From an uncultured Paenibacillaceae bacterium (GTDB taxonomy: Bacteria; Bacillota; Bacilli; Paenibacillales; K13), in assembly GCA_913056365.1 (NCBI GenBank), contig CAJXLT010000003.1, forward strand, positions 186,001 to 250,000: DNA of 64,000 bases, read 5' to 3'. Made by a program: the position numbers and the translations under genes. This document shows, piece after piece, positions 44,561 through 50,870 of this stretch. Position 1 is the stretch's first letter, and every line of letters begins with the position of its first letter. The notes under the pieces are model-generated. The model was not told where the DNA came from. It ran no database searches and worked only from the letters and a program-made list of their open reading frames with translations.

Positions 44561-45445
44561 CTAGTAAGGCGAGGGAATGTCTAGCACAGTTAACTGCAGC
44601 TGACGAATGCGATCAGGATTGGAAACCAAATCAATCTCGGTGATTGTTCCAGACTTGATCGTGAAGGCAAGGACGTAGAGCAGCGTTCCGCGAGGCGCTA
44701 CGATCACACCTAATGTTCCGTTCACAAGTGCTGGTTGTGCAGAAGTGTGCGCACGTCCCGAAATCTGATTGGCGAGAGCAAGCGCTCCTCTAGATTCCTT
44801 CGGCTCGCCTGTCTCACGGTCGTCCCGCAATACGACATTCGGATCAAGCAACGTTAATAAGCTCTCTAGCCGTCCGGCGTGTGCCGCTGCGAGAAATGCA
44901 TCGACAATCTTCCGTTGTCGTTCCAGATTGGCGTCAGACGGAACTTGCCCGCCGCGTACCCGACGGCGCGCCCGGCTGGCAAGCTGCCGGGTTGCGGCTT
45001 CCGATTTCCCCACGATAAGGGCAATCTCGGAGAAGGACATTGCAAATATATCATGCAATATGAATGAAACACGTTCGGCTGGATTCAGATTATCGAGCAC
45101 GACCAACAGGGCAACGCCAATAGAATCAGCCAGTATAGCTTCTTGTTCGGGGTCCCCGCGGCTATCATCGCTCGCGTTGGACTCGGGGAACTGTGCCTCC
45201 AGCGGTTCCTCTCCTCTTGATTTGCGAGATCGCAGCACATCGAGACATACACGTGAGACCACTGTAGTCAGCCATCCGCCCAGATTGTCGATGTCATCTG
45301 CATTCGAACGGACTAGACGCAGCCACGATTCCTGTACGGCATCCTCTGCCTCGCTCCATGAACCTAGCATACGATAAGCAACCGACTTAAGGTGATCCCG
45401 ATGTGCTTCAAACTGCTTCGCCAATTGATCCTGAGTAGTCATCAT
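44561..45445 (-). CDS. ECF41-type sigma factor with fused SnoaL-like domain
   Basis: 294 residues; AGAGGGATT before ATG ATG on the minus strand. Region 2 (KSVAYRMLGSWSEAEDAVQESWLRL) and region 4 (LNPAERVSFILHDIFAMSFSEIALIVGKSEAATRQLASRARRRV region) are followed by a C-terminal SnoaL/NTF2-like domain of about 115 residues ending NPDRIRQLQ. This plan is that of ECF41 sigma factors, where the extra domain replaces an anti-sigma factor. The usual carboxymuconolactone-decarboxylase partner gene is absent; a divergent azoreductase takes its place. Both this gene and the azoreductase have a TGTCAC-N16-CGTC promoter, so it should activate itself and its neighbour. Confidence 0.88.
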   Translation of the reverse strand: MMTTQDQLAKQFEAHRDHLKSVAYRMLGSWSEAEDAVQESWLRLVRSNADDIDNLGGWLTTVVSRVCLDVLRSRKSRGEEPLEAQFPESNASDDSRGDPEQEAILADSIGVALLVVLDNLNPAERVSFILHDIFAMSFSEIALIVGKSEAATRQLASRARRRVRGGQVPSDANLERQRKIVDAFLAAAHAGRLESLLTLLDPNVVLRDDRETGEPKESRGALALANQISGRAHTSAQPALVNGTLGVIVAPRGTLLYVLAFTIKSGTITEIDLVSNPDRIRQLQLTVLDIPSPY

Positions 45446-45511
45446 CTTTAATCCCTCTTTAATTCTATAATGGGGTATCTCTATCCTACCATGAATCCCC
45501 CTTACTAGGAT

Positions 45512-45538
45512 GACGTATGCAATGACGTCGATGTGACA
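45512..45538 (-). promoter_or_regulatory. ECF41-type promoter of the sigma factor gene
   Basis: On the minus strand TGTCACA (complement of 45532-45538), 16 bp, CGTC (complement of 45512-45515): an exact match to the ECF41 promoter pattern as I know it. It lies 67 bp before the sigma factor start, pointing to autoregulation. Confidence 0.75.
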
Positions 45539-45583
45539 ATTCCCTACCTACTTGTTGAATTCCGTATGTCGTTGTTATCGGTC

Positions 45584-45610
45584 TGTCACGTATTGCCGAT
45601 CCCGACCGTC
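45584..45610 (+). promoter_or_regulatory. ECF41-type promoter of the azoreductase gene
   Basis: TGTCACG (45584-45590), 16 bp, CGTC (45607-45610); one base off TGTCACA. It lies 63 bp before the azoreductase ATG and faces away from the matching promoter at 45512. Confidence 0.72.
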
Positions 45611-45673
45611 ATCATAGTGAATGGTTGATTCAAGGTTTCAGCCAAACCACAATGAAAGGATGGTCCTCTCAAT

Positions 45674-46315
45674 ATGACGACGGTATTATGGATTACAGCG
45701 AACCCGCACGATCACGACACCTCTTATGGTATGGCGGTAGGTCAACAATTTGTACAAGCATACCTTTCCGCAAATCCGGATCATGAAGTGATCCACCTTG
45801 ATCTGTTTGCTATGAACGTTCCACAGCTAGATGCGGATGTATTCCGTGCTTGGAGAAAGTTGGAGGGAGGGGCTTCATTCGCAACATTATCCGAAGTAGA
45901 GCAGGGGAAGGTCGGACGCATTGGCGAACTTGTGGATCAGTTTGTGTCTGCGGACAAATATGTATTCGTCACACCGATCTGGAATTATTCCTATCCACCC
46001 GTTATGAAGGCGTACATCGATGCAATCTGCATAGTTGGGAAAACATTCAAGTACATGCCGGATATCGGTCGGGTCGGTTTGCTGAAGGACAAAAAAGCGG
46101 TGCATATTCAAGCGAGCGGAAGCAGGCTGTCACCGGGCTCCCAAGATGCGGAGCTTGAAATGGGACATCGGCATATGAAGGTCATTGCGGAGTTTATGGG
46201 AATTCCCAGTCTGGCAAGTATTTTCGTGGAAGGTATGGCTGAGTTGCCGGACCAAGCACAGGTCATTAAGGAAAAAGCGTTGCAGCAGGCGCGTGAGCTT
46301 GCCTTGACCTTCTAG
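45674..46315 (+). CDS. FMN-dependent NADH-azoreductase
   Basis: 213 residues; GAAAGGATGG lies about 10 nt before the ATG. Flavodoxin-like quinone/azo reductase of the AzoR family: FMN phosphate-binding start (TANPHDHDTSYGMAVGQQF), the flavin loop VTPIWNYSYPPVMKAYIDAI, and SGSRLSPG. It reduces azo compounds and quinones by two electrons in the cytosol and may protect against electrophile or quinone stress. It is divergent from the ECF41 sigma factor and behind a matching promoter. An 8-bp hairpin (46346-46371, no T-run) follows the stop. Confidence 0.9.
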   Translation: MTTVLWITANPHDHDTSYGMAVGQQFVQAYLSANPDHEVIHLDLFAMNVPQLDADVFRAWRKLEGGASFATLSEVEQGKVGRIGELVDQFVSADKYVFVTPIWNYSYPPVMKAYIDAICIVGKTFKYMPDIGRVGLLKDKKAVHIQASGSRLSPGSQDAELEMGHRHMKVIAEFMGIPSLASIFVEGMAELPDQAQVIKEKALQQARELALTF

Positions 46316-46911: not shown

Positions 46912-48144
46912 TTAGTTGGCTTTCATGCCGACGAGACGAACTTTCACGGTAACTTGGATATTCATTTTGGCATCCTTGAATATGCTGCGCCAATGATCGG
47001 AAGAATGCACAGACTGTCTCCAATAGGAAGGATGCTTAGCCCGAATATACTCACCGAAGCCGAATATATCGGACTCCTCCTGTTGCATCTTCGCTATAAA
47101 CTTCTCGTAAGTTTTCTTCGCTCGTTGCTCCACTTCTTCCTGGAATGCCTGTACTGTAGATTGGCGGTCGAATTGGATGATTCCTTCCTTCAGCTTCTCA
47201 TCAATACTTCCTTCCAGCGCAACATCGATGGTGAATTCGGGTCTGCCATTTTTGATTTCAGTTGTAATGTTTGTTTGGCGATGGGTAGTTCGGAACAAGA
47301 CGGGATGCGATTCGTCTGGGTATGGTGTGAGTACGGAATAACCGCCACTCGGCACGCCCACGATTGCCATCAACACGCCGATTTCTATTGGGTTTGTCTT
47401 CCCGATCATCTTATCTCCTTGAAAATAGGCTAGTCCAGCTAGCTGGATATTTTCCTCGTCCTTCACTTTTATATAGGGGAGAAATCCATCACTACCTAGG
47501 TTGGAGATCTTCGTCCAGAACTTCCCAAGAAATTCATTCGGGAACTTCCCGAGTTCCACAGCATGGTCCATCGTAGCAAGCAAATAAAGAGCTGGCACTC
47601 TCTCTAATTCCGGTGAAGCATTGATGAGATCTGCTGCCATTCCTTCAGAGACGACGAGCCAGGTCAGTCTGCGAATTTGCGGATTCCGGCGAAAATAGTC
47701 ATTGATATTGTCCAAGCCGTCCTTGGCAATCTCTTCTGAAATGACAATGATGCGGAGGTGGCCGTAGAAGAGCCGATCAGCCAATTCCTGCTGCAGCGTT
47801 ACTAGTGCATCATCGACGGTATACCCGATCGCACTCAGTATCCAAACAGGCTCCATGCTGGGACTGCTTGCTCCGCCGCCTTCACTGGGCCCTAGGGGGA
47901 TTCTTCCGGGCACGGCAATTTGCGCTGTCAGCTTGATGAAGCCTGTTTCAGGAGGAGGGAATTCGTTGATGAGGTGGGAAATTTCTTCTTTCGCTCGCAC
48001 TTCTTCATCTGTAGCCTTGTCGATAGAAATAGCCAGCACAACAGCCCTTTCTTCGATTTCACGCCGGTCCCAGCAGCTTGTTAGGGTAAGCAGCATTACA
48101 ATACCTATACATAGGAGTACCCATCTTCTAACGAGCGGGTGCAT
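46912..48144 (-). CDS. Spore germination lipoprotein, Ger(x)C family
   Basis: 410 residues from the ATG of MHPLVRRWV, with AAGGAGA upstream inside the end of the preceding gene. Lipobox TLTSC followed by WDRREIEERAVVLAISIDK, the standard opening of GerC proteins. The three-domain C subunit is full length. It is lipid-anchored on the spore inner membrane and forms the germinant receptor with the A and B subunits. It overlaps the B-subunit gene by 17 bp, so the two are translationally coupled. The next gene, the CLC_0170-type protein, follows at 16 bp. Confidence 0.92.
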   Translation of the reverse strand: MHPLVRRWVLLCIGIVMLLTLTSCWDRREIEERAVVLAISIDKATDEEVRAKEEISHLINEFPPPETGFIKLTAQIAVPGRIPLGPSEGGGASSPSMEPVWILSAIGYTVDDALVTLQQELADRLFYGHLRIIVISEEIAKDGLDNINDYFRRNPQIRRLTWLVVSEGMAADLINASPELERVPALYLLATMDHAVELGKFPNEFLGKFWTKISNLGSDGFLPYIKVKDEENIQLAGLAYFQGDKMIGKTNPIEIGVLMAIVGVPSGGYSVLTPYPDESHPVLFRTTHRQTNITTEIKNGRPEFTIDVALEGSIDEKLKEGIIQFDRQSTVQAFQEEVEQRAKKTYEKFIAKMQQEESDIFGFGEYIRAKHPSYWRQSVHSSDHWRSIFKDAKMNIQVTVKVRLVGMKAN

Positions 48145-49240
48145 TACTATTCGATTCTCCTTTCGCCCTGCGAATCGAAGCAACTAGCAGCAGGAACGCA
48201 GGATAAGCAATCGTGATGAGCAGTCCGAAGCGGCCAACCCATTCAATGACCTCGTAAAGCTGCGCAACGCTTTGCGGCAGCATAGCAATGACGAAGATGA
48301 CTGGAAGGATCGCAAAGGACAGCGCCTTGTGATCCTTCAACCGAAACAGCTGACTCATAGCCAATATCGTCAAGAAGTAGCTGACATACAGCGTAGTGAA
48401 TACAGCCGCAACCCAGACGGCGATAAAAGCCGCATCCAATCTTTCAAGAATGTTGGCGGGCAGAGATGTAGTTTTGGCGAGTTCTAATGTGGGCCATAAC
48501 AGATTTTTGATTTCCTCGGCACCGAATACGCCAATGGCCGCGATGACGATTAGCAAATACAGGCAAGCTGCTATAGACACGCCCCAGAATCCGGCTGTCA
48601 CACTGCGCTCCGGCCTACGCATATACGGAATGAGGAAGCCAATGATGAAGGAGCCTTGAAACAGGGCAGCAACGGTTAGTACACCAGTCCCCATTCGCTT
48701 CCACTCTGTTCCCCAGATCGGCTGCAAATAGAGCCACTCGGCATTCTTCAATGACAATATGACGATGATTAATCCCGGAGCGAGGATGAATGGCAAATAT
48801 AATAAATGTGTATAGGCAAAAATACGTATGTCCTTACGGGCTTGTTTGGCGGCAAGCAACAGCATGACGATAACGGTAACCTCCAGCGGTGTTTTGCGCA
48901 GCACTGAGGTTACGACTACCGTTCCGAATTCTCTTGCCGCAAGTGAGGTGAGCACCGCGAAGAAGAGGATGATCAGCATACTGCCCGCGAATGCTATCGG
49001 CTTCCCAATGACGCGCGGACTATACTGGATAATCGATTGATTCTGAAATCTCCTGCCGAGGAAGATAAGGATGAATACGCCTAGAAATCCAGCAGCAGCT
49101 CCTCCAGCAGTGATCAAAGGGCCAGCTGATCCGGCGGCACGCGCAGCGAAGAGCGGAAGCGGCAGCACGCCGACCCCGATAATAGAGCTAGTTAGAATGG
49201 CTGCCGTCTGTATGGTCGTCAGTTGCTTCTGGATATTCAT
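48128..49240 (-). CDS. Spore germination transporter, GerAB/ArcD/ProY family
   Basis: 370 residues from the ATG of MNIQKQLTT, for which AAGGAG lies 6 nt upstream; the ATG five codons earlier is itself just before that ribosome site. Ten or so membrane spans of the APC-superfamily fold (TSSIIGVGVLPLPLFAA; SLAAREFG). This B subunit is the germinant-binding, transporter-like part of the receptor in the spore inner membrane. It overlaps the A-subunit gene by 53 bp and the C-subunit gene by 17 bp. The germinant cannot be read from sequence. Confidence 0.92.
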   Translation of the reverse strand: MNIQKQLTTIQTAAILTSSIIGVGVLPLPLFAARAAGSAGPLITAGGAAAGFLGVFILIFLGRRFQNQSIIQYSPRVIGKPIAFAGSMLIILFFAVLTSLAAREFGTVVVTSVLRKTPLEVTVIVMLLLAAKQARKDIRIFAYTHLLYLPFILAPGLIIVILSLKNAEWLYLQPIWGTEWKRMGTGVLTVAALFQGSFIIGFLIPYMRRPERSVTAGFWGVSIAACLYLLIVIAAIGVFGAEEIKNLLWPTLELAKTTSLPANILERLDAAFIAVWVAAVFTTLYVSYFLTILAMSQLFRLKDHKALSFAILPVIFVIAMLPQSVAQLYEVIEWVGRFGLLITIAYPAFLLLVASIRRAKGESNSNAPAR

Positions 49241-50870
49241 CGGCTGCTCCTTCATTCTGATTCTTCATCTTCATCGGGTCCAACGTGTGGTGATGGGAAT
49301 GCTTCATCTGTGTTCCGGTATTGGATGTGCGTTTGTAATTGCTGGCATGCAGAATAGACGGTCGGTATTTCATGCTCCAGAATGGCAGCCGGAAGACGAG
49401 ATCCTTCATCCCCTGGAAGTTGCCAGGAGAAGCTGGCGACATGTACGACACGCCGAAGGACTTCAGCGACAACACGTGATTGGCAATGATAATTAATCCG
49501 ATCATGACGCCGTACAAGCCGAACATCCCGGCCAGCGCGATCATAGGAAAGCGCAGCATACGCAGGGCGAAGGCAGCATTGTAAGCCGGTGTAGCGAAGG
49601 AGCCGATAGTAGTAAGCGCAATGACGACTACCGTAATCGGACTAGCGAATCCGGCTGAGACTGCCGCTTGGCCTATGACGAGTACGCCGACGATGGACAA
49701 GGCCCCACCGACTTGCTGCGGCAGGCGTATCGTCGCTTCCCGCAATACTTCCATCGAAACTTCCATAATAAGCACTTCGACGAACGAGGGGAATGGCACG
49801 CCCGCCCTGCCGCCTGCTACTGCGACTGCGAACTGCGTAGGGATTAATTCCGGATTGTAAGACAATATCGCGACATACAGTGACGGGAAGACTAGCGAGA
49901 AGACAAGGGCGACCACGCGTGCAAGTCGAACGAAGCTTGCTTGGAGGAAGCGGGACGAGTAATCCTCGGCCGTCTGATAAAACTGGCTGAATACCGTTGG
50001 CACAATGAGTGCAAAGGGGGAGCCGTCCATCAGGATAGTCACTCTTCCTTCGACCATATTGGCAACAGCCTTATCGGGACGCTCCGTATTCTGAACTTGT
50101 GGAAAAGGTGAGTACGGATGATCTTCGATCAACTGTTCCAGATAGCCGACATCGAGCACCGCATCTATATCGATTTCGCTCAAGCGCTGCTTGACTTCCT
50201 TGATAAGTTCATCATTGGCAATGCCTTGAATATAACAAACAGCAACCTTGCTCTTCGTAATCTTGCCGACATGAATAATGTCTGTCTGGAAGTCCGGTGT
50301 TTGGACACGATAGCGGATAAGGCCGATATTACGATCCAGCGATTCGATGAATCCTTCGCGGGGGCCCTGAATTACTTGTTCTGTCGGCGGTTGCTCCACT
50401 GCTCGTCGTTGCACTTGTCTGACGCCGATTAAGAATGCTTCTTGCATGCCATCGACGAACACCGCGCACTTCCCTTGAAGAATTTCATGGACAATCCTTA
50501 GCATGCCGGTATCCAGCTGACAGTTCGCATGGTACAAAACTTGATACTGCAAAGCATGCATGACTTGTTCAGGCGAGGTTACGCTTCCCAATTGCCGTGT
50601 CGCGAATAACGGGCGGAGCACGTCCTCATTGAGTCCTTCAATTTCAACCATGTTCGATAAATAAACTAAGAAGGCTGCATGCTGATCGAATACAGTGAAC
50701 CGCCGAATGACAAAGTCGTAGCTGCTCCCGAGCACTTCCTCCAGGATGCGTTCATTCTCTTGAAGGGCTGTCTGTACGTTTTGCTTTTCTAATTGCTCGT
50801 TTTTTTGTCCGAAGGTTGATTGTGAATTTGAATTTACTCTGTTCTGTTCGGTGTTGGGACGCTTAGCCAT
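49188..50870 (-). CDS. Spore germination protein, GerA A subunit
   Basis: 560 residues; TGAGGTGAG before the ATG on the minus strand. A hydrophilic N-terminal region of about 290 residues, starting with a Gln/Asn-rich tail (NTEQNRVNSNSQSTFGQ), then the core with VEGRVTILMDGSPFALIVPTVF and about five to six membrane spans, then a basic/His-rich end (HSHHHTLDP). This is the A subunit of the germinant receptor, which is proposed to form an oligomeric ion channel. First gene of an A-B-C-CLC_0170 operon with overlapping reading frames. It should be transcribed in the forespore (SigG), but I did not find a clear promoter in 50871-51014. Confidence 0.93.
   Translation of the reverse strand: MAKRPNTEQNRVNSNSQSTFGQKNEQLEKQNVQTALQENERILEEVLGSSYDFVIRRFTVFDQHAAFLVYLSNMVEIEGLNEDVLRPLFATRQLGSVTSPEQVMHALQYQVLYHANCQLDTGMLRIVHEILQGKCAVFVDGMQEAFLIGVRQVQRRAVEQPPTEQVIQGPREGFIESLDRNIGLIRYRVQTPDFQTDIIHVGKITKSKVAVCYIQGIANDELIKEVKQRLSEIDIDAVLDVGYLEQLIEDHPYSPFPQVQNTERPDKAVANMVEGRVTILMDGSPFALIVPTVFSQFYQTAEDYSSRFLQASFVRLARVVALVFSLVFPSLYVAILSYNPELIPTQFAVAVAGGRAGVPFPSFVEVLIMEVSMEVLREATIRLPQQVGGALSIVGVLVIGQAAVSAGFASPITVVVIALTTIGSFATPAYNAAFALRMLRFPMIALAGMFGLYGVMIGLIIIANHVLSLKSFGVSYMSPASPGNFQGMKDLVFRLPFWSMKYRPSILHASNYKRTSNTGTQMKHSHHHTLDPMKMKNQNEGAADEYPEATDDHTDGSHSN

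Follow-up and report, generated by a model that had tools for sequence, protein, structure and literature searches.

The window, i.e., the whole 64,000-nucleotide stretch analysed here, contains an ECF sigma factor gene and an azoR gene in divergent orientation; their start codons are separated by an intergenic gap of 228 bp (45446-45673). The features of the locus are the following:

44561..45445, minus strand: ECF sigma factor of 294 aa (Pfam Sigma70_r2/r4 plus a C-terminal extension)
45512-45538, minus strand: predicted ECF41-type promoter of the sigma gene, an exact match to TGTCACA-N16-CGTC (TGTCACATCGACGTCATTGCATACGTC)
45584-45610, plus strand: predicted ECF41-type promoter of azoR, TGTCACG-N16-CGTC (TGTCACGTATTGCCGATCCCGACCGTC), with one departure from the consensus
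45674..46315, plus strand: AzoR-type FMN-dependent NADH azoreductase/NADH:quinone oxidoreductase of 213 aa (Pfam Flavodoxin_2, E=3.9e-41)

Both motifs reported for this gap in the first-pass annotation, as well as its length, were recovered exactly where they had been placed, and the distance between the boxes and the start codons, proposed as 63-67 bp, measures 66 bp for the sigma gene and 63 bp for azoR when counted from the end of the -10 box to the ATG. The pattern TGTCAC-N17-CGTC has two matches in the 64 kb, both located in the gap, where shuffled sequences lead one to expect 0.15. In the genome (4.65 Mb), this 10-base pattern occurs 13 times, against seven for the reversed control. Three of these 13 matches are clearly promoter-like, namely the two boxes of the window and a third match upstream of another ECF41 locus; the other exact matches are nearly all intragenic. 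A larger regulon was rejected on the grounds that these remaining matches lie mostly inside genes. Since the -35 box of the azoR side departs from the consensus at its last base (TGTCACG for TGTCACA), azoR may be more weakly driven, with a -10 box that is perfect.

The sigma factor consists of the sigma2 and sigma4 domains only, followed by a SnoaL-like C-terminal extension of ~100 aa, which is the ECF41 architecture. Residues 9-279 align with SigJ of Mycobacterium tuberculosis (PDB 5xe7; E=4.9e-41), SnoaL_2 domain included. The best NCBIfam models, SigJ (249.6 bits), SigX4 (217.7 bits) and SigI (203.4 bits), all score below their cut-offs (271 for SigJ), followed by PRK08241 (102.1 bits) and SigX5 (85.7 bits). 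No anti-sigma gene adjoins the sigma gene at the locus. The genes next to ECF41 factors encode a carboxymuconolactone decarboxylase (CMD), an oxidoreductase or an epimerase (PMC3426412); we found AzoR here, and CMD and/or AzoR in relatives. The ECF41-type assignment is one by domain layout, promoter boxes and neighbour gene. The WLPEP linker motif was not found in this sigma factor, whose sigma2-sigma4 linker reads EPLEAQFPESNAS. WLPE is absent throughout the clade, and among 84 aligned sequences only a canonical paralogue on contig C9 of the same genome has it; a partial form, LPDP/LPEP, persists in some relatives from outside Bacillota. Of the C-terminal motifs, NPDKL is degenerate as NPDRI, and the DGGG position reads DDRETG. 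Because WLPEP makes up half of the presumed locking contact in canonical ECF41 factors, the C-terminal domain may work differently in this protein. SnoaL-like extensions also occur in groups ECF56, ECF205, ECF294 and ECF295; for ECF294, we found passing mentions only in the literature.

AzoR matches characterised azoreductases over its full length. The top-scoring PDB entries are FMN-dependent NADH-azoreductases (E=4e-79), one of them described as an NADH:quinone oxidoreductase, and the AzoR score of 147.6 bits is below the NCBIfam subfamily cut-off of 188. Relatives belonging to several families of the order likewise have an AzoR orthologue, 60-73% identical, beside the sigma gene. The genome has another azoR gene, a paralogue with 46% identity, at C1:350201, near which no exact motif match was found. 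The azoR gene of the window is the predicted sole target of the switch and is probably controlled by the sigma factor. A quinone or electrophile signal is plausible, being consistent with the enzyme family, and is offered as a guess. Beside azoR, on the minus strand (46912-50870), lie three genes encoding proteins of 560, 375 and 423 aa, which by eye resemble spore germinant receptor subunits.

Relatives of the sigma factor (E<=1e-60) were detected in 71 of the 395 genomes of the order. For the motif survey, we scanned 420 bp upstream of the sigma gene in 36 loci, window included, whose sigma factors are at least 61% identical. Exact boxes were found on both sides in 20 loci, on one side in 15 and on neither in one; in nine of the 15 one-box loci, it is the sigma-side box that is missing, the sequence reading TGTCGC-N17-CGTC, one base off. 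Among the 20 two-box loci, 17 have a -35 to -35 distance of 41-45 bp (45 bp in the window), and the others have 32, 32 and 33 bp. In 25 other related loci, 36-51 bp separate the sigma-side box from the start codon, compared with 66 bp in the window. A conserved operator between the -35 boxes was considered and rejected, given that, by eye, the length of the spacer is kept and its sequence is not.

Upstream of the 36 related sigma genes, the motif has 55 matches and the reversed motif none. Because of this difference, and because the spacing is near-constant despite the divergent DNA between the boxes, we regard the conservation as strong evidence for a functional box pair. It also bears on the alternative that the boxes match a short consensus by coincidence, in an intergenic region like any other, a reading that the 13 occurrences in the genome, mostly intragenic, could be taken to favour. 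Nevertheless, two divergent copies in a single 228-bp gap beside a SigJ-type ECF gene, conserved as a pair across related genomes with no control match, already contradict chance, and we assign this explanation a negligible probability. The proposal made at first pass, of divergent ECF41-type promoters with a sigma factor that regulates itself and has AzoR as local target, gains support from the layout, motif, spacing and gene pair, all of which are kept across related genomes.

The target side of the locus varies among relatives. Among the 41 loci placed on the sigma tree, CMD is followed by azoR in the same direction in 12, CMD occurs with no azoR in reach in nine (where the flank covered was 1.5 kb, an azoR further away would escape detection), azoR occurs without CMD in nine, including the window, azoR is accompanied by a CMD fragment in five, and neither gene is present in six more distant loci. 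In a genome of the same genus (G001), the locus has both genes, with CMD between the promoter and azoR. The fragments correspond to the N-terminal 18-21 residues of CMD in L086, L098 and L099 (best E-values from 6e-8 to 8e-10), to residues 1-35 and 131-150 in L094, and to residues 116-151 in L103. The sigma tree requires CMD to have changed state at least nine times, and two of the loci with fragments, L098 and L103, have as sisters loci in which CMD is intact (L095 and L101, respectively). From these state changes, the fragments and their sister loci, we conclude that azoR as predicted sole target is a reduced state that has arisen repeatedly, through CMD deletion where fragments are left. 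No CMD remnant was detectable by tblastn in the window's own gap, so we infer, rather than observe, the loss in this line. A likeness of positions 45605-45640 to the same-genus CMD was rejected as such a remnant, since tblastn aligned 14 residues with E=0.26 or worse and the orientation is wrong for the ancestral layout. The earlier view that AzoR as sole neighbour is something special finds no support in this form: the relatives have CMD-azoR, CMD alone or azoR alone, with CMD repeatedly deleted, and Flavodoxin_2 oxidoreductases were already among the ECF41 neighbours in 2012 (PMC3426412). In a distant subclade of the same sigma factor (L120, L122, L142 and L148), neither CMD nor AzoR is found beside the sigma gene, which is followed in the same direction by a gene for a conserved protein of ~160 aa (MSNYRVEEKDAFRFIGYPTLL...), possibly another target or partner.

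In a second alternative, the sigma-side box would be the only working one, with TGTCACG left over in decayed form from the promoter that once served the lost CMD, and azoR would be expressed from a housekeeping promoter. The one-base departure from the consensus on the plus strand, the absence of CMD from the window and the few loci without a recognisable target-side box (L096, L101, L103, L106, L117 and L119) are compatible with such decay. However, the position of the box and the 45-bp spacing between the -35 elements are kept, the -10 element is perfect, and in L104, L117 and L119 the box on the sigma side is likewise TGTCACG. In our judgement, a relic is unlikely, and two working promoters are the favoured reading.

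All ECF41-linked CMDs have been stated to carry a CxxC motif, from which a role in oxidative stress was argued (PMC3426412). In contrast, CxxC is missing in all 17 CMD proteins examined beside this sigma clade (L014 and 16 loci among L080-L108), which have D-x-x-C instead, mostly as NGDSVC where NGCxxC is expected. Since the CMD partners here lack CxxC, the oxidative-stress argument is not transferable to them.

Taken together, the motifs, their geometry and conservation, the gene identities and the erosion of CMD in relatives, as read from the sequences, point to a local, self-contained ECF41-type switch that would control its own sigma gene and azoR, a reading to which we assign a probability of about 0.85. 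By analogy with characterised ECF41 members, the sigma factor would recognise its own promoter (-35 TGTCACA, -10 CGTC) in two copies arranged back to back. The copy before the sigma gene would provide positive feedback, i.e., autoregulation, and the second copy, before azoR, would drive the FMN-dependent NADH azoreductase/quinone reductase output. The fused SnoaL-like C-terminal domain is expected, again from the characterised members, to keep the sigma factor inactive until a small ligand or a condition releases it. In many relatives, a CMD-family gene adjoins the promoter in the target unit; the window has no such gene, and its promoter is followed directly by azoR.

The same genome has two further, canonical ECF41 loci:

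C9:91103-91963: second ECF41 sigma factor, canonical, locus L072 (G000:C9:89603-93463) and L011
C24:8917-9792: third ECF41 sigma factor, canonical, locus L073/L110 (G000:C24:7417-11292)

In the C9 locus, a flavin amine-oxidase-like gene and the sigma gene follow one another in one direction, and TGTCACA-N16-CGTC (TGTCACAAAAAGCTACGGTGCCTCGTC) is located before the former, near its start; the sigma factor has YVGPWLPEP. In the C24 locus, the genes for the sigma factor and a carboxymuconolactone decarboxylase are convergent, both preceded by TGTCACA-N16-TGTC, and this CMD does carry CxxC (GCSFC). Both loci resemble the window in their near-identical promoter boxes and in the C-terminal extension of the sigma factor. 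Nevertheless, their sigma factors are ~30% identical to that of the window and keep WLPEP, DGGG and NPDKL/NPKKL, and the adjacent genes encode an amine-oxidase-like flavoprotein (C9) and a CxxC CMD (C24), whereas the neighbour in the window is AzoR.

Because these two loci use near-identical boxes, their sigma factors could read the boxes of the window, and cross-talk is a real question. As a rival to the local switch, the boxes may be genuine ECF41 promoters that are read by, or shared with, the paralogues, the three loci forming one cross-talking network, in agreement with the identity of the -35 boxes across the window, C9 (-N16-CGTC) and C24 (-N16-TGTC). However, the association of the box pair with this sigma clade holds from genome to genome, the spacers and -10 flanks differ between loci, and the ECF41 factors that have been characterised regulate nothing beyond their own locus (PMC3426412). 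We consider a shared network rather unlikely and a switch confined to its own locus the better account. In any case, a genome in which three ECF41 sigma factors have near-identical boxes would test how such systems are kept insulated.

The repeated deletion of CMD, the presumed partner enzyme, while the sigma factor, the promoters and AzoR stay suggests that AzoR chemistry is a core output of this subtype, and the retention of AzoR offers a testable signal class. As a tentative extension, to which we would give clearly less than even odds, the clade may represent a distinct ECF41 subtype of the Paenibacillus-containing order, with a WLPEP-less sigma factor, a target unit of CxxC-less CMD and AzoR from which CMD has been repeatedly deleted, a non-peroxide signal, e.g., a quinone or aromatic compound, and a different inactivation of the sigma factor.

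Judged by its sequence features, the locus belongs to a known switch type. The ECF41 promoter was mapped by 5'RACE and reporter fusions in Bacillus licheniformis and Rhodobacter sphaeroides, and Wecke et al. reported in 2012 that the gene neighbouring the ECF41 factor was its only detectable target (PMC3426412); likewise, Sinorhizobium RpoE9 has a single target, a CMD (PMC6180224). The window shares with Ecf41Bli-ydfG of B. licheniformis and Ecf41Rsp-RSP_0606 of R. sphaeroides the bipartite promoter, the target gene next door and a C-terminal extension in place of an anti-sigma gene, whereas their targets are CxxC carboxymuconolactone decarboxylases and its own is AzoR; moreover, ECF41 factors are described with WLPEP, which the window sigma factor lacks. 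M. tuberculosis SigJ, in spite of its near full-length alignment, SnoaL_2 included, differs in its linker motif, and the window sigma factor remains under the NCBIfam SigJ cut-off.

The arrangement itself was already described by Wecke et al. as the divergent <ECF< >COE> class, which comprises 15% of 373 loci and in which both promoters are often present (36 and 41 of 55), with Flavodoxin_2 among the oxidoreductase domains of ECF41 neighbours (PMC3426412). The window has this gene layout, both promoters and this neighbour domain; however, no azoreductase was singled out in that study, in which the linked CMDs were said to be of the CxxC type, and we found no paper on ECF41 together with an azoreductase in the literature searched. 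The ECF41 tree of the same study has a mixed cluster of Firmicutes, Proteobacteria, Chloroflexi and Acidobacteria inside the actinobacterial branch (PMC3426412), and, given its resemblance to the taxonomic spread of the matches to the window sigma factor, we infer that it is the same clade. To this known picture, the present analysis adds the loss of CMD, a sigma factor and CMD partners that lack WLPEP and CxxC, respectively, and three ECF41 loci with near-identical boxes.
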